From: a virus
Virus record (IMG/VR): IMGVR_UViG_3300044756_000020
Location: 1 to 39,196 of that record
DNA: 39,196 bases
Reading direction: 5' to 3' (one strand)
Positions within the stretch are counted from its first letter, which is position 1. Every line of letters starts with the position of its first letter. Below are positions 4,909-30,869 of this stretch, in pieces. The position numbers and the translations under genes were made by a program. Below the pieces are notes generated by a model. It saw only the letters and a list, made by a program, of their open reading frames with translations. It ran no database searches and had not been told where the DNA came from.

Positions 4909-5895
4909 ATGGCAGCCGTCCCCGCACAAGGCGCGACCCCGTCGAACACCTATCTCGAGACCGCCGCGATTGGTGTAAAAGAAGATCTTGCAGATATAAT
5001 CTATCAGATTGACCCGGATGAGACGCCGCTGGTGTCGGCCATCTCGCGTGTCAACGCCCAGCAGGTGCTGACCGAGTGGCTCGTCCAGACCCTCAACGCC
5101 GCCGGCGATAACGCCCAGCCCGAGGGCTTCACCGCCACGATGCAGGCCGTTGTGAAACCGGTTCGAATGAACAACGTTTGTCAGATCATGGCGCGCACGG
5201 TTGGGGTTTCCGGCACTCTTAGATCAGTCGACATGGCGGGCGGTGAGGATGAATATAACCGCCAGCTCGTGTTGCGTGGGATGGAGATCAAGCGGGATCT
5301 CGAGTTGGCGATCACGTCGCCCCTCGTGCGCGCCATCACCGACCCCCGTCATATGTCGGGCCTACCGTGCTACTGCGCCAATGGAACGCGCGGCACCGGT
5401 GCTGGCGTCATGCCTGTCGGCGATGGCAGCAACGCTGGCACTGTCGGCACCAAACGTGACCTCACGCTGGCGATGGTCGACGCGGCGATGCAGCAGGCCT
5501 GGACGGCCGGCGGCAAGCCGTCTCTCGGCATCATGTCGGGCAACGTGAAGGCCTACTTCGCTACACTTTCGCAAGGTGGAACGGGCAACGCCGTCGTTGC
5601 CCAGAACATTCAAAATGTTACGAGTAGAGAAGAAGTTACGATAATGGGCGCCGTCGATGTCTACCGGACCAACTTCGGAAGTATCCAGTTGGCGCCTGAC
5701 CGTTTCTGTCCCGCGAACCAGATCCTGCTCGTCAGCACCGACTATGTGGAACTGGCTCCGTTGCCGGGTCGAGACATTGTCGAGCAAGAATATGCCCGCA
5801 CTGGCGACAACTCGCAGGGTGGCATCGTGTTCGAGGGGACGTTGCGTCCAACGGCGCCCCTTGCCAATGCCTGGATTGCCGATTTAAATCAGTGA
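4909..5895 (+). CDS. major capsid protein (SU10/DUF5309-like)
   Basis: A HK97-fold shell protein of about 328 aa. The N-terminal block NTYLETAAIGVKEDLADIIY, followed by QIDPDETPLVSAI, is the hallmark of the DUF5309/SU10-type major capsid family, and the C-terminal block around GGIVFEGTLRPTAPLANAWI also fits. The start is uncertain: ATG 4897 has no visible Shine-Dalgarno, while ATG 4909 has GGA about seven bases upstream, so the shorter form (MAAVPAQ...) is preferred. An ORF opening at 4765 would run through the leader repeats and is rejected. The gene follows scaffold in function but is separated from it by a leftward gene and a 286-bp non-coding leader, implying independent expression. Confidence 0.88.
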   Translation: MAAVPAQGATPSNTYLETAAIGVKEDLADIIYQIDPDETPLVSAISRVNAQQVLTEWLVQTLNAAGDNAQPEGFTATMQAVVKPVRMNNVCQIMARTVGVSGTLRSVDMAGGEDEYNRQLVLRGMEIKRDLELAITSPLVRAITDPRHMSGLPCYCANGTRGTGAGVMPVGDGSNAGTVGTKRDLTLAMVDAAMQQAWTAGGKPSLGIMSGNVKAYFATLSQGGTGNAVVAQNIQNVTSREEVTIMGAVDVYRTNFGSIQLAPDRFCPANQILLVSTDYVELAPLPGRDIVEQEYARTGDNSQGGIVFEGTLRPTAPLANAWIADLNQ

Positions 5896-22915: not shown

Positions 22916-23367
22916 GTTGGAGCGACACCCCACCCGATCGTGTGATCACGATGTCGCGGCCGCCGTCGACCAACGCGCTGTGGGAGACGGGTGTCGGCAA
23001 GGGGCGCGTTCGGACGGCGAAGTATAGCGAGTGGATACTGTCGGCCGGCTGGGATGTGCGCCGGCAGATGGCTGGTGTGGCGGCGATTGATTGCCGGTTC
23101 AACGTGGTCATCGAGGTGCCGATCAGCCGACGAGACACCGACAACTGGACCAAGCCGACACTGGATCTGCTCGAGCATGTCGGCGTCGTCAGCAATGACG
23201 GCAACGTCAATGAGGTGATCATCCGGCCCGTCGAGCGTGACGATGTGATGGTCGGCCTGTGGTGCCTGCCCGAGATGGGCGCGGTGCGGAAACAGGCGGC
23301 GGCGCGGCGTGTGAGCAAGCCGTGGAAGAAGCCGCGCGCCGGTCTCGGTTGGAAGATGCCCGCGTGA
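22912..23367 (+). CDS. RusA-like Holliday junction resolvase
   Basis: A 151-aa endonuclease. The N-terminal PPSTNALW block and the core RRDTDNWTKPTLDLLEHVGV followed by VSNDGNVNEV are the RusA signature, with D75, D77, K81, D85 and D96 as candidate metal and catalytic residues. It resolves branched DNA before packaging. It starts at GTG 22912, overlapping the previous stop. The C-terminus is basic (KPWKKPRAG). Length fits the family (about 120-150 aa). Confidence 0.88.
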   Translation: MSWSDTPPDRVITMSRPPSTNALWETGVGKGRVRTAKYSEWILSAGWDVRRQMAGVAAIDCRFNVVIEVPISRRDTDNWTKPTLDLLEHVGVVSNDGNVNEVIIRPVERDDVMVGLWCLPEMGAVRKQAAARRVSKPWKKPRAGLGWKMPA

Positions 23368-24179
23368 CGGCTCCTCGCCTCCGCGTTCTGAGCCTGGGCG
23401 CCGGCGTCCAGTCGACGACGCTCGCGTTGATGGCGGCGGCCGGCGAGATCGAGGCGCCCGACTGCGCGATATTCGCCGACACGCACTGGGAACCGGCCTC
23501 GGTCTATACGCACCTGGGCTGGCTGGAGCCGCTGTTGCCGTTCCCCGTCCACCATGTCAGCGCGGGGGACATACGAGCCAACATCGCGACCCGGCGGAAC
23601 ACGACCGGAGGCCGTTACGCGGCCATTCCGTTCTTCATGCTCAATCAGGACGGCACCAAAGGCATGGGCCGGCGGCAATGCACGTCGGAATACAAGATAG
23701 AACCGATCAATCGAAAGATACGTGAGTTACTCGGCAAGCAACCGCGCCAGCGCATTCCGGCCGATGCCGTCGACCTGTTGATCGGCATCAGTGCCGACGA
23801 AGCGCAGCGGGCAAAACCGTCTCGGACGGCGTGGACGCGCAAGACGTTCCCTCTGCTCGACCTCGGAATGCGCCGATCTGACTGCCTCGCGTGGTTGGCG
23901 AAACACCAACACCCGACGCCGCCAAAGTCGGCGTGCATCGGCTGTCCGTTCACCTCGGACCATCGATGGATGGACCGCAGGCGGAACCAGCCCGCCGAGT
24001 GGGCCGACGCGGTCGAAGCCGACCGGCAACTGCGGACGGGTCACGCGCGGGGAATGCGCGGTGTCGAGTTCATGCACAGCCAACGGGTGCCGCTCGATGA
24101 AGTCGACTTTTCGCGGATCGATCCCGATCGGCAACCGGATCTGTTCGGCAATGAGTGCGAGGGGATGTGTGGTGTTTGA
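23364..24179 (+). CDS. PAPS reductase-like PP-loop protein
   Basis: A 271-aa protein of the adenine nucleotide alpha-hydrolase superfamily. The PP-loop LSLGAGVQSTTLAL (residues 9-22) binds ATP. RRQCTSEYKIEPINRKIREL and the later SACIGCPF give Cys positions typical of phage PAPS-reductase-like enzymes, which may carry an Fe-S cluster or a thiolation site. The C-terminus ends in a further Cys pair (NECEGMCGV). Possible roles are sulfur assimilation, nucleotide thiolation or DNA modification; the substrate is unknown. It starts at GTG 23364 overlapping the resolvase stop. Confidence 0.8.
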   Translation: MTAPRLRVLSLGAGVQSTTLALMAAAGEIEAPDCAIFADTHWEPASVYTHLGWLEPLLPFPVHHVSAGDIRANIATRRNTTGGRYAAIPFFMLNQDGTKGMGRRQCTSEYKIEPINRKIRELLGKQPRQRIPADAVDLLIGISADEAQRAKPSRTAWTRKTFPLLDLGMRRSDCLAWLAKHQHPTPPKSACIGCPFTSDHRWMDRRRNQPAEWADAVEADRQLRTGHARGMRGVEFMHSQRVPLDEVDFSRIDPDRQPDLFGNECEGMCGV

Positions 24180-26280: not shown

Positions 26281-26880
26281 GTGCCCCGCGTCACACTTCA
26301 CCTGCTGCCCGTGGGATCGACGGATATCCCACGGGCCGACGCGGAAATAGCGCGCACCATCGCGACGCTGAAGACCGCCCAGTTTGAGCAAGACCCGCTC
26401 TTCGATGTCGGCGACTCCTTTAAGTATTCGCTGATGGGGTCAGCCGTAAAACGAGAGGGAAAAATCCTCGAGGCGGCGGTCATGGACGCGATCGCGCAAC
26501 ACGGTCACCTGCGGCTGATTGACGTAAATCGTCACCTGAAACGCGTGCCGGATGTTCAATTCGAGCTGCTCGAGCGCGGCTGGATGGTCGCGCTGGAGAT
26601 AAAGCGCGGGTCTTTTCACGACGCGAAATCCCTGCGTGGGTTCCGACGCGATCTGGAAGATATCCCCATCATTTTACAGCAGGCGTCATTGTCGCTTTTC
26701 CCGCCCGAGTGCGTGCATTTTCATATCGTGTTCGTCGGCGGCGTCCCGCGACTGAAGGAGGGGATGACGCCGGAGGGGCTGGCGAACCTGTATGGGTTAC
26801 GGACCCGCTCGCACATCATGGCGGCACGGCAACGGTATTCCTCGGCGATCAAAATGGTGCTGCGTGAGAGGGGGTTGTGA
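26281..26880 (+). CDS. predicted PD-(D/E)XK nuclease
   Basis: A 199-aa protein starting at GTG 26281. GKILEAAVMDAI (Glu64), RVPDVQF (Asp91) and VALEIKRG (Glu106, Lys108) lie in the order and spacing of the PD-(D/E)XK nuclease core: a helix with Glu, then Asp at the end of a strand, then ExK on the next strand. The C-terminal part has a helical QRYSSAIKMVLRERG end. It could be a recombination exonuclease, a resolvase-type enzyme or a restriction-like nuclease. It is followed by TGATG coupling to the methyltransferase gene, which raises the idea of a modification-linked pair. Prediction by motif only. Confidence 0.55.
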   Translation: MPRVTLHLLPVGSTDIPRADAEIARTIATLKTAQFEQDPLFDVGDSFKYSLMGSAVKREGKILEAAVMDAIAQHGHLRLIDVNRHLKRVPDVQFELLERGWMVALEIKRGSFHDAKSLRGFRRDLEDIPIILQQASLSLFPPECVHFHIVFVGGVPRLKEGMTPEGLANLYGLRTRSHIMAARQRYSSAIKMVLRERGL

Positions 26881-27845
26881 TGGAGCTTGTCCGCTACGAC
26901 GCGATGTGCCGCGCCATCGCCGAATGCCACGCTGTCGATGAGGTCAAGGACATCCGCGATAAGGCGAGGGCGCTGGAACACTACGCGCGGCAGGCCAAGG
27001 ACAAGGAAGCCGTCAGGCAGTGCGGCGCCGTTCGCCTTCGCGCGGAAGTCAAAGCGGGCGAGCTGCTGGCGAAAATGGAAAAGGCGAAGGGCGCGAAAGG
27101 CAACCCAGGCGGTCAGGGCGCGATCGTTGTGCGGTCTCATGACGATACCACACAAACCCTCTCCAGTATCGGTGTTTCAAAGAAGCAGTCATCCGACTGG
27201 CAACAACTCGCTGCCCTGCCAACGCCGGAAATCGAAGCCGCGTTGAACAAGTCGGTTATCCCCACGACCAACGCCTTATTGAAAAAGCCACGCCGGGCGA
27301 AGCGAGAGCGGGCGTTCGCCGAAACAACGAAGCAGACGAAACTCTATGGCGTGATCTACGCCGACCCGCCCTGGCGGTTTGAACCATACTCGCGCGAAAC
27401 CGGCCTCGATCGCGCCGCCGATAGTCATTACGAAACGATGAGCCTGGATGACATCGTGACCATGGCCGTGCCCGCGGCGCCCGACTGTGTGCTGTTCTTG
27501 TGGGCGACCGTGCCAATGCTGCCTGAAGCTTTGGCGGTCATGCGGGCCTGGGGCTTCACCTACAAGAGCCATTGCGCCTGGGTGAAGGATCGGATGGGCA
27601 CCGGCCACTGGTTCCGCAACAAGCATGAGTTACTGCTTGTTGGCACGCGCGGCGTCGGGGTGCCGGCACCGGCGCCGGGTGAGCAGTATGTTTCCGTCAT
27701 CGAGGCCGCGCTCGGCCGGCACAGCGAGAAGCCGGCCTGTTTCGCCGAGATGATCGAGGAGATGTTCCCCCACGTCCCAGCGATAGAGCTGTTCGCGCGC
27801 GGCCAGCGCCTGGGCTGGGACGTTTGGGGCAACGAGGCCGGCTGA
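26880..27845 (+). CDS. MT-A70 family adenine methyltransferase with N-terminal regulator-like domain
   Basis: A 321-aa protein. Residues 1-140 are a helical domain (CRAIAECHAVDEVKDIRDKA) found in front of phage methyltransferases and ParB-like proteins. Residues 150-315 are an MT-A70 domain with the catalytic DPPW at 162-165, SHYETMSLDDI and LFLWATVPMLPEAL. It transfers methyl from SAM to N6 of adenine in DNA (or RNA). ATG 26880 is preferred over GTG 26877 because AGAGGGGG is better spaced. The target sequence is unknown; modification would protect phage DNA or alter GcrA/CcrM-type control. Confidence 0.85.
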   Translation: MELVRYDAMCRAIAECHAVDEVKDIRDKARALEHYARQAKDKEAVRQCGAVRLRAEVKAGELLAKMEKAKGAKGNPGGQGAIVVRSHDDTTQTLSSIGVSKKQSSDWQQLAALPTPEIEAALNKSVIPTTNALLKKPRRAKRERAFAETTKQTKLYGVIYADPPWRFEPYSRETGLDRAADSHYETMSLDDIVTMAVPAAPDCVLFLWATVPMLPEALAVMRAWGFTYKSHCAWVKDRMGTGHWFRNKHELLLVGTRGVGVPAPAPGEQYVSVIEAALGRHSEKPACFAEMIEEMFPHVPAIELFARGQRLGWDVWGNEAG

Positions 27846-30025
27846 TGTCAGCGCACGGCGAGGCGGCGAGGGAGACGCCACAGCTATCGGCGGCGCTTTG
27901 GTATGCCTCGCTCGGCTGGTCGGTCGTGCCCACGCACCGGATCGTCAACGGGGCCTGCTCGTGTCCCGCCGGCGCCGCCTGCACCAGCAAGGGGAAGCAT
28001 CCGGCGGTCGCCTGGACACCCTACCAGAGCGTGGCCGCGACGATCGAGCAGATCCGGGCATGGTTCGGTCCCGGCGGTCTGTTCGCCGGCCATGGCGTCG
28101 GCATCGTCACCGGCGCCGTCAGCGGCTTTGTCGTGGTGGATGTCGATGAGGGACCGGGCAAGGCTGGCGGCGAGACGCTGAACGATTTGCAGTTCCTGAA
28201 CGGAGACATGCCGCACACCGTGGTCGCCCGCACCGGAGGCGGCGGCAAGCATATCTTTCTGCTGCATCCTGGCGGCGTCTGGGTCACCACCGGGCGTAAC
28301 GTCCTCGGCCCCGGCGTTGATGTCAGGGGTGACGGCGGCTTCATCGTGGCGGCTCCATCGTTGCACGAGAGCGGACGCTATTACCTGTGGGACGCCGCCT
28401 GCCACCCGCGTGACACGCCGATCGCGGCTGCTCCGGCCTGGGTCGTGGAGATGGCCGAGGGGTCGGCGCCCGATCCGGCGACGGGACAGCGGGCGCCATC
28501 GACCGGGACAACCGGGACCGGGGAGATCGTCCGCGACAGTTGGGGCCGCGTCATCGATGGCCGCGAGCGGTTCATGGTCGGCATCGTGTGCGGCGTCATC
28601 GCCTCGCTGGCGCGTGAAGCGGACGCGCTGCCGACCGTGGAGGCGGTCGTGGCGGAAGCATGGCCGACGTATGAGCGTGGCGCCAGGGCCAGGGGCGCCT
28701 CACTGGAGGCCGATGGGCGTGGCGAGACGCTCATGCGTCAGCGCGCCGGTCACTTTCTGAGGCGCGCGGAGAAGGGCAAGTGGAAGCTGGACAAGCGGGA
28801 GGCGCCCCCTTTCGGGGAAGACAAGGGTGACGCGTTGATGAGGGCCACGCCAGTGGAGGAGCTTGATTTCTCGATCATCCAGCCCCGGCGTTGGGTCTAT
28901 GGCCGAGAGCTAATTCGCGGTTACGTCAGCGTGCTGGCCTCGGTCGGCGGCGTGGGCAAGACCGCGTATGCGCTCCTGGCGGCGATTTGCATGGCGCTCG
29001 GCCTGCCTCTGCTGGGTGTCACCGTCCACGGCCGCACACGGGTGTGGGTCATAAACCTCGAGGATCCGCTGGAGGAGATGCGCCGGCGGATGGCCGCCGC
29101 GATGCGACATCACAAGATCGAGGTGGCCAATCTGGCTGGCTGGCTGTTTCTCGACAGCGGGCGTGATCAACCCCTGGTTGTAACCATCCGGGGACAGGAC
29201 GGGGCGCTTTGGATGGCGCCGGTCGTGCCGGCGTTCGTCGCGGAGATAAAGCGGCGCGGCATTGGCGCCGTGTTGGTTGATCCGTTGGTGCATAGCCACA
29301 CGGCGAACGAGAACGACAACACCGAGATGGCTTTCGTGATGGGATTGTGGGCGAGGGTGGCGCATGAGGGCGACTGCGCGGTCTGGCTCGCCCACCATTT
29401 CAGGAAGGGTGGGCAGGGTGGCGACGCGGACGCCGTGCGGGGCGCCGGCGCCATTCAGGGCGCGGTCAGGGCCATGCACACGCTCTCGGCGATGACGGAG
29501 GAGGAGGCCGAGAGGGTCGGCGTCAAAGCCGAGGATCGCCTGGGCTACATCAGGCACGACTCGGTCAAGCAGAACATGGCGAAGGCGCCGGCGAAGGCGG
29601 ACTGGTATCGGCTGGTTTCCGTCCCGTTGGGCAATGGGAACCTGGCATATCCAGACGGTGACGAGGTGCAGACGGTCGAGAGATGGAGCCCGCCAAGCCC
29701 GTGGACGGGCCTGACGTGGGACGCGGTCGAGCAGATCCTCGCGCGCATCGTGCGCGGAACGGTGCTGGGGGAGCCGTGTGCGCTGGCGAAGCAGGCCGGT
29801 GACCGGTGGGCCGGGCACGCGGTGATGGCGTTCCACAAGACGGCGACGGTGGGGCAGGCGGCCGACATCCTGAAGCGGTGGGTGGCCAACGGGGTGCTGG
29901 TGCCGGGGGAATGGAAGGCGCCGAAGACGCGGAAGACGACCGGGTGCGTTACGGTAGACCAAGGAAAGTTCCAGGAAATGAGACGGCGCGCGACGACCCC
30001 GGAAACGGAGTCGGAGGTGTTATGA
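27845..30025 (+). CDS. prim-pol / AAA helicase replicase
   Basis: A 726-aa two-domain replication protein. Residues about 12-200 are a bifunctional primase-polymerase domain: DVD at 99-101, GGGGKHIFLL at 131-140 and GVDVRGDGGFIVAAPS at 157-172 are the conserved catalytic blocks. Residues about 340-560 are a RecA/RepA-type helicase ATPase with Walker A ASVGGVGKT (365-373), Walker B VLVDP (476-480) and WLAHHF near 520. The C-terminal part may be a winged helix (GQAADILKRWVANGVLVP). It should prime and unwind phage DNA. The start ATG 27845 overlaps the methyltransferase stop (TGATG). It is followed by a structured intergenic region. Confidence 0.87.
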   Translation: MSAHGEAARETPQLSAALWYASLGWSVVPTHRIVNGACSCPAGAACTSKGKHPAVAWTPYQSVAATIEQIRAWFGPGGLFAGHGVGIVTGAVSGFVVVDVDEGPGKAGGETLNDLQFLNGDMPHTVVARTGGGGKHIFLLHPGGVWVTTGRNVLGPGVDVRGDGGFIVAAPSLHESGRYYLWDAACHPRDTPIAAAPAWVVEMAEGSAPDPATGQRAPSTGTTGTGEIVRDSWGRVIDGRERFMVGIVCGVIASLAREADALPTVEAVVAEAWPTYERGARARGASLEADGRGETLMRQRAGHFLRRAEKGKWKLDKREAPPFGEDKGDALMRATPVEELDFSIIQPRRWVYGRELIRGYVSVLASVGGVGKTAYALLAAICMALGLPLLGVTVHGRTRVWVINLEDPLEEMRRRMAAAMRHHKIEVANLAGWLFLDSGRDQPLVVTIRGQDGALWMAPVVPAFVAEIKRRGIGAVLVDPLVHSHTANENDNTEMAFVMGLWARVAHEGDCAVWLAHHFRKGGQGGDADAVRGAGAIQGAVRAMHTLSAMTEEEAERVGVKAEDRLGYIRHDSVKQNMAKAPAKADWYRLVSVPLGNGNLAYPDGDEVQTVERWSPPSPWTGLTWDAVEQILARIVRGTVLGEPCALAKQAGDRWAGHAVMAFHKTATVGQAADILKRWVANGVLVPGEWKAPKTRKTTGCVTVDQGKFQEMRRRATTPETESEVL

Positions 30026-30201
30026 GAAGTACGCAAGAAGCCCGCAAAGGGGTGCGGCGTACTTCTCAGGTGCCTATAGACAAAAAAGAACCCCGCACGC
30101 GCGTACTTCTCTCCGCTGGGGGCGGAGAGAGAAGTCCGCACGTCTGTGTGCGGTGGTCTTTTTTGCCTCCAGGCACCTGGGCCGATGTCCGCATGAGTTA
30201 A
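30022..30201 (+). CDS. 59-aa open frame across the hairpin array (doubtful)
   Basis: It begins by ATGA overlap with the replicase stop and ends at TAA 30199-30201. The protein is basic (RSTQEARKGVRRTSQ) with no domain. The DNA beneath it is dominated by inverted repeats and a terminator, so it may be a leader-type peptide or simply an open frame without function. The overlap is its only positive sign. Confidence 0.3.
   Translation: MRSTQEARKGVRRTSQVPIDKKEPRTRVLLSAGGGERSPHVCVRWSFLPPGTWADVRMS
30023..30068 (+). repeat. 12-bp inverted repeat after the replicase gene
   Basis: TGAGAAGTACGC (30023-30034) and GCGTACTTCTCA (30057-30068) are perfect inverted copies with a 22-base loop. A further copy of the right arm, GCGTACTTCTC, lies at 30101-30111 and can compete for the same left arm. 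Confidence 0.75.
30067..30179 (+). ncRNA. nested alternative hairpins after the replicase gene
   Basis: Outer stem CAGGTGCCT (30067-30075) with AGGCACCTG (30171-30179). Middle stem 30082-30098 with 30148-30164: AAAAAAGA pairs with TCTTTTTT and CCGCAC with GTGCGG, with two mismatches. Inner hairpin ACTTCTCTCCGC (30105-30116) with 30122-30135, with a two-base bulge. CCGCAC occurs twice (30093, 30136), and both can pair with GTGCGG at 30148, so a terminator and an antiterminator-like fold exclude each other. It may be an attenuator, a regulatory RNA or a replication initiation site. Confidence 0.6.
30136..30164 (+). terminator. rho-independent terminator within the hairpin array
   Basis: CCGCAC-GTCTGT-GTGCGG (30136-30153) followed by TGGTCTTTTTT. 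The alternative pairing of GTGCGG with the upstream CCGCAC at 30093 would destroy it. An A-run at 30082-30087 makes the element partly bidirectional. Confidence 0.7.
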
Positions 30202-30239: not shown

Positions 30240-30869
30240 ATGTATGATGATGAGCGGTTTCGTCTCGCCCTCGTGCCCGTCGATCAGGCGTTCTGGGCAA
30301 GCGAGCAGAAGTGGGGTGTGGGCCGCCTCGAGAGGCTGGTCAGCAGTTCCACCCTCGCCGCCTACCGGCGTGGTTGGACCCGCTACAGGCAGGCGACCGA
30401 GGCGAGCGATGGAGCGGAGTTGGAGATTGTCGGCCCTCTCATGATCGCGGCGCTGGCGTTCATGGATAAGGAGGCGACGGAAGCCGGCCACCCGCATCTG
30501 GCGCCCGATACGTGGGAAGCGGCGATGGGTGATGGGCGGACCCTGGTCGTGGTCAGGTCCAACGCGGAAGCGTCGGCCGTCCTGCGTGGGGCGAAGGGTG
30601 GATCGTGGGAAACAACGATCCCGCCCGATTTGGCTGTCACGGTGAGAAGCCAGCATGAGGGCAGGGCCCTGGTCGTCATCACCATGGCCGAGATCGTCGG
30701 CCTGCTGAAGCGGGCGGAGCAGGAGGTGGCTGTCGGCACCGCCTGGGAAGGCGACCCCGCTCCCTCTGGCAGGGTCATGGGAGAGGGAGCGGCGGCCGAT
30801 CTGGCGAGGGATGGCTACCCCTTGCCCATCCCCATCGGCGCGGACGTGTCGGCGTCCCTGCCGTTCTGA
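30240..30869 (+). CDS. hypothetical protein, conserved phage type
   Basis: A 209-aa protein. The N-terminus VDQAFWASEQKWGVGRLERL followed by VSSSTLAAYRRGWTRYRQAT is a helical pattern seen in alphaproteobacterial phage proteins without known function. The C-terminus ends with SASLPF. It is the last rightward early gene, beginning 39 bases after the doubtful 59-aa frame and behind the terminator. It overlaps tail-to-tail with the leftward HTH gene at 30815 by 55 bases. Confidence 0.7.
   Translation: MYDDERFRLALVPVDQAFWASEQKWGVGRLERLVSSSTLAAYRRGWTRYRQATEASDGAELEIVGPLMIAALAFMDKEATEAGHPHLAPDTWEAAMGDGRTLVVVRSNAEASAVLRGAKGGSWETTIPPDLAVTVRSQHEGRALVVITMAEIVGLLKRAEQEVAVGTAWEGDPAPSGRVMGEGAAADLARDGYPLPIPIGADVSASLPF

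Follow-up and report, generated by a model that had tools for sequence, protein, structure and literature searches.

SaPI Rep and SCCmec Cch2 recognize, through their C-terminal domains, iterons that lie directly downstream of their own genes; for Cch2, direct repeats are essential for binding, whereas inverted repeats are dispensable (PMC7581432). pRN1 requires a stem-loop that follows the gene for its PrimPol-helicase, and its authors found no iterons (PMC4234260). The primase of RSF1010 uses ssi hairpins, and the alpha protein of phage P4, which we compared by description, is a primase-helicase whose winged-helix domain binds repeats in the origin (PMC4234260).

The window (the whole stretch of DNA analyzed, 39,196 nucleotides) is a circular phage genome of 39 kb, its first and last 127 bases being identical, and has no DNA similarity to named phages. 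A replicase gene in it is followed immediately by an array of short repeats, and the features of this locus are listed below.

27824-30025, plus strand: replicase gene, 733 amino acids, with Prim-Pol (PF09250), RepA-like AAA_25 helicase (PF13481) and C-terminal winged helix
27845, plus strand: alternative ATG start of the replicase
29717-29956, plus strand: predicted C-terminal winged-helix domain, the proposed iteron reader (from the model of the C-terminal half, and because the motif tracks this domain in relatives)
29792-29794, plus strand: Gln codon that aligns with the Q/R column of relatives, which goes with motif base 6 there
30025-30034, plus strand: iteron copy 1, AGAAGTACGC, overlapping the replicase stop codon; left arm of the 12-bp repeat
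30036-30045, plus strand: iteron copy 2, AGAAGCCCGC
30057-30066, minus strand: iteron copy 3, AGAAGTACGC; right arm of the 12-bp repeat, with a GTGCGG core at 30052-30057
30087-30096, plus strand: iteron copy 4, AGAACCCCGC, with a CCGCAC core at 30093
30101-30110, minus strand: iteron copy 5, AGAAGTACGC
30130-30139, plus strand: iteron copy 6, AGAAGTCCGC, with a CCGCAC core at 30136
30150-30159, minus strand: iteron copy 7, AGACCACCGC, degenerate (3 mismatches), with a GTGCGG core at 30148
30183-30192, plus strand: iteron copy 8, CGATGTCCGC, degenerate (2 mismatches)
30067-30179, no strand assigned: outer inverted repeat with an A-rich/T-rich middle, its 32-nt arms (30067-30098 and 30148-30179) 84% complementary, enclosing the inner iterons
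30136-30167, plus strand: terminator-like G+C-rich hairpin CCGCACGTCTGTGTGCGG followed by the T run TGGTCTTTTTTG; termination predicted
30240-30869, plus strand: downstream ORF, function unassigned, with homologues 3' of the array in five relatives

The replicase matches PF09250 and PF13481 at 2.7e-33 and 2.3e-33. Its primase is thus of the Prim-Pol type and not of the RSF1010 RepB' type, and its helicase belongs to the RepA/AAA_25 group and not to SF3, matching RSF1010 RepA (1g8y) both by sequence (E=1.2e-13) and by fold. An AlphaFold2 model of the C-terminal half (pLDDT 90.4) ends in a predicted winged helix, with helices at 303-318, 327-332, 335-341 and 347-359 and strands at 363-369 and 376-382. 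The ORF at 30240-30869 has no match in Pfam, PHROG or NCBIfam. Upstream of the replicase, 23259-24179 and 26877-27845 resemble phage PAPS-reductase-family proteins (phrog_424) and MT-A70 methyltransferase.

Set beside the described systems, the locus most resembles those of SaPI Rep and Cch2, in which a self-encoded initiator helicase likewise carries a C-terminal domain for short iterons directly downstream: here too repeats directly follow the initiator gene and a C-terminal DNA-binding domain is predicted. The SaPI and SCCmec proteins differ in helicase family, motif, copy number and host, and their primase is often separate, whereas here the primase is fused and the iterons occur in both orientations. 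The origin used by ORF904 of pRN1 is similar in joining a PrimPol, a helicase and a C-terminal winged helix to a stem-loop of ~100 nt and a terminator hairpin that closely follow the gene, and in the variation of the stem-loop sequence between relatives (PMC4234260); its helicase, however, is SF3 and it lacks the iterons that recur alongside the RepA-like helicase described here. RSF1010 shares a RepA-type hexameric helicase, a primase, iterons and hairpins (PMC4234260), but uses three separate proteins (RepA, RepB' and RepC) where the phage has a single polypeptide that includes a Prim-Pol domain and a winged helix of its own. The alpha protein of phage P4 resembles the replicase in domain layout and differs in its TOPRIM-type primase (PMC4234260). 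On the strength of a layout like that of SaPI Rep and SCCmec Cch2, and in part that of pRN1, we read the array that immediately follows the replicase gene, about eight iterons in all, as the probable replication origin of this phage, with a probability of roughly 80%.

The repeat is a motif of ~10 bp, AGAAGTMCGC (core CCGCAC), present in about eight copies on both strands within 170 bp after the replicase. The array begins at the replicase stop codon, and its eight copies (30025-30192; five forward, three reverse) carry 0-3 mismatches relative to AGAAGTCCGC. Counting 10-mers on both strands with at most 2 mismatches gave 7 copies at the array, compared with no more than 4 in any of 200 shuffles; genome-wide, 3 of 217 scanning windows reached 7-8 by the same mismatch-tolerant count. 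With at most 1 mismatch, GAGAAGTACGC occurs at the array and at no other place in the genome, and the CCGCAC cluster there is the densest of the genome (4 in 102 bp). An exact 7-mer count did not single out the array, because its copies are more degenerate than those of most relatives, so a mismatch-tolerant count was needed. An exact palindrome search in viral contigs was set aside, as its 26 matches were about the number that we estimated to arise by chance.

Relatives were collected with the downstream ORF and alignments of the helicase as queries; a scan of genome collections yielded only 4 hits. Most of those scanned, which encode a RepA-type helicase bearing a winged helix at its C-terminus, carry 5-15 copies of a motif on one or both strands, either directly after the RepA-like gene or within about 1.6 kb of it, compared with a usual 3-4 copies for repeats elsewhere in the same locus. 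The motif varies from phage to phage (CCGGACA, CGTGACA, CGTATCA, GCGGAAGT-like, GGCGTAGGTT-like, CCGCAC and others). Unannotated arrays were found in named phages as well: Rhizobium 16-3 (CGTGACA, 15 copies), RHph_N65 (12), Roseobacter CRP-823 (11) and CRP-406 (5), and Alteromonas PB15 (8). At the same place in Caulobacter GB2A and Mycobacterium Klein we saw no array. The proteins of L002 and L003 end without the C-terminal domain, and no array accompanies them either; L042 and L043 have the C-terminal extension, yet no array was found within the sequence covered. L038, L040, L047, L048 and L051 retain a homologue of the window's downstream ORF after the array. The N-terminal primase module varies among relatives (Prim-Pol, TOPRIM, or PriCT-2 without another recognized primase domain), and helicase, reader and array persist despite this change.

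Three further observations concern array architecture and distribution. In L066, the closest relative of the window helicase, a 24-nt outer inverted repeat (5230-5330) surrounds the iterons, its sequence unrelated to that of the window's repeat. The arrays of L053, L055, L057, L059, L060, L062 and L170 share an A+T-rich block near GTAAGTCATTGAAATCATTG between iterons that differ, and this block could be an unwinding element. Lastly, a related helicase gene followed by repeats (6, 3 and 5-6 copies) occurs in L146, L148 and L149, from Lichenibacterium, Leifsonia and Streptomyces genomes.

Which motif a phage carries goes with its C-terminal winged helix and not with its helicase or primase. L040 (= L046), a natural chimera, has a Prim-Pol half with 73% identity to that of the window, a helicase and C-terminus like those of L041 (= L045), and the L041 motif. 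L100/L112 have a core identical at 316-318 of 320 positions to that of CCGCAC phages and a C-terminus only 62-63% identical, and their array is built of CCACAG. Across 30 non-redundant replicases, partial Mantel tests related motif to C-terminus given the core (r=0.27, p=0.0005) and not motif to core given the C-terminus (r=-0.09, p=0.9), with shared ancestry only partly controlled. These comparisons of sequences suggest that the replicase reads the array via its C-terminal winged helix, a statement about recognition and not about the effect of binding. The specification of repeat sequence by the C-terminal domain, as in SaPI Rep and Cch2, is thus seen in relatives, and the window offers one comparable position.

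One marine subfamily, with motif CC-N3-CA-S6, allowed a residue-base code to be derived from 41 distinct combinations of C-terminus and motif. Base 6 is C where one protein column holds Gln (25 rows) and G where it holds Arg (16 rows), with no exceptions. Base 3 follows a second column: Asp goes with G, Ala, Thr or His with A, and Gln with T; the sole exception, L114, lacks this motif type altogether. Each column ranks first of 420 for its base, again with shared ancestry only partly controlled. In a model of L134, the base-6 column falls just before helix 2 and the base-3 column in the wing. The pairings would resemble canonical contacts, Arg with G on one strand and Asp with C or Gln with A on the other. 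On the helicase-core tree the states change at least 4 times for base 6 and at least 7 times for base 3; sign tests on independent pairs pointed in the expected direction apart from some ties and were not significant, because too few such pairs exist. L122 and L145 have similar spacers, and base 3 differs between them from A to G in most copies.

The code was then applied to 33 held-out contigs that the first set did not include, two of which end before any array. It predicted the motif correctly, among 16 possible CCNCAN motifs, for all 19 distinct arrays of 5 or more copies; six of these carry CCTCAC, a combination unseen in the derivation. The held-out contigs L209, L211 and L213 share one further array with a TCCCACC-like motif, in which base 6 fits and base 3 breaks the rule. 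The window's C-terminus is divergent, with 19-35% identity between its winged helix and those of relatives, and lies outside the subfamily. It therefore played no part in deriving the code, and a comparison is possible solely at the Gln/C position, where the Gln fits the C at base 6 of CCGCAC; this is one point of agreement, and a weak one. For L066, L067, L085 and L131, also outside the subfamily, we claim no code, as their motifs cannot be placed in the same frame. We found no published description of the two-residue code in the open-access literature, which does not prove novelty.

The same 170 bp fold strongly. The structures listed by an earlier, sequence-only reading of the locus are all there: a 12-bp perfect inverted repeat (30023-30034/30057-30068), a third copy of its right arm (30101-30111, our iteron copy 5) to which we add an imperfect fourth (30129-30139), a 9-bp outer stem (30068-30076/30171-30179), an A-rich/U-rich middle stem (A-rich/T-rich in DNA), an inner hairpin (30108-30116/30122-30130) and a terminator-like hairpin with a T run (30136-30153). 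That reading likened them to attenuators, two copies of CCGCAC competing for one GTGCGG. In an RNA attenuator at this place, mutually exclusive hairpins would control a terminator that separates the replicase from the gene after it. Strong folding, competing copies and the T-run hairpin do speak for one: as RNA the array reaches -91.5 kcal/mol (z = -7.7), none of 200 shuffles folding as strongly, and it ranks first among 652 segments of the genome. However, CCGCAC does occur twice but so does GTGCGG (30052 and 30148), making two against two, and because opposed copies of one site necessarily pair, their hairpins are mutually exclusive and competition need not mean a switch; the inverted repeats are by-products of an iteron array on two strands. 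The one alternative tried, a forced pairing of the left arm with the third copy, gave -71.6 kcal/mol, some 20 kcal/mol weaker than the minimum-free-energy fold and so not of similar stability. Folding is no weaker on the minus strand than on the plus (z = -9.2), nor for the array as DNA (z = -8.7), again with 0 of 200 shuffles as strong in each case. Relatives keep the sites and not the RNA structure, large hairpins or stem-loops being present in many and absent or weak in several that retain iterons; L055, L057, L059 and L062 have direct repeats only and no notable hairpin. An Rfam search of the array found no match. We therefore rejected an attenuator or riboswitch, which we regard as very improbable. 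An intrinsic terminator and nothing more, its extra repeats being accidental, is just as hard to sustain: the hairpin followed by TGGTCTTTTTTG at 30136-30167 and a C5TTTAG5-type hairpin inside the arrays of L047, L048 and L051 agree with termination, but leave the copies, their recurrence in relatives and their co-variation with the replicase C-terminus unexplained. The terminator is likely an added function and not the whole element.

Two further explanations accept a role for the replicase at the array. It was also suggested earlier that the position suits a single-strand initiation site for the adjacent prim-pol/helicase. Initiation at this place is strongly favored by an array that is kept in position and co-varies with the C-terminal domain, but an ssi-like form, in which hairpins and not double-stranded iterons are recognized, is improbable. 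A RepA-type helicase and a primase occur together as in RSF1010, the DNA hairpins are very stable and L066 has a long outer repeat too; against this stand the several relatives that keep iterons where hairpins are absent or weak, and the finding that Cch2 binding needed direct and not inverted repeats (PMC7581432). Alternatively, the array could be an operator or copy-control site at which the replicase limits its own synthesis or handcuffs DNA, the true origin lying elsewhere. The sequence evidence bears on reading of the array and not on the outcome of binding, which leaves room for such a role, and plasmid iterons are often both origin and control sites. The array is not marked by GC skew: the switch sought there is absent from the window, where cumulative skew peaks near 33.4 kb (33420) and is lowest near 15.0 kb (15014), and from most relatives examined, only G012 (L047) having a minimum nearby. 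A strand-composition switch is expected at many origins without defining them. We consider an operator unlikely, since the array sits after the replicase gene and not at its promoter, no second dense motif cluster occurs in the window or in 10 other records (3 of them partial), and characterized systems of like layout are origins (PMC7581432, PMC4234260).

From the array, its recurrence and its co-variation with the C-terminal domain, we infer origin activity, binding, an order of steps and transcription termination as follows. The PrimPol-RepA replicase would bind the double-stranded iterons through its C-terminal winged helix; its RepA-like helicase ring would then assemble and open the DNA, and the Prim-Pol domain would prime on the exposed strand. 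The single strands would fold into mutually exclusive hairpins because iterons lie on both strands, and one hairpin with a T run may also end the replicase transcript.

More broadly, phages with RepA-type replicases may have a fast-changing, modular system of origin recognition, a proposition on which we place even odds. The winged helix would read the iterons by a simple residue-base code, all copies would change along with the reader, and reader and array would be swapped between phages together, as one cassette, whatever primase and helicase accompany them. If true, whether co-infecting phages are incompatible in replication would depend on this system. Through the two-residue code, origin specificity can be put to the test, and the code suggests a way in which the replicons of related phages stay separate. 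The origins of most metagenomic phages are unknown, and a short repeat just after a RepA-type replicase gene would point to a likely one.
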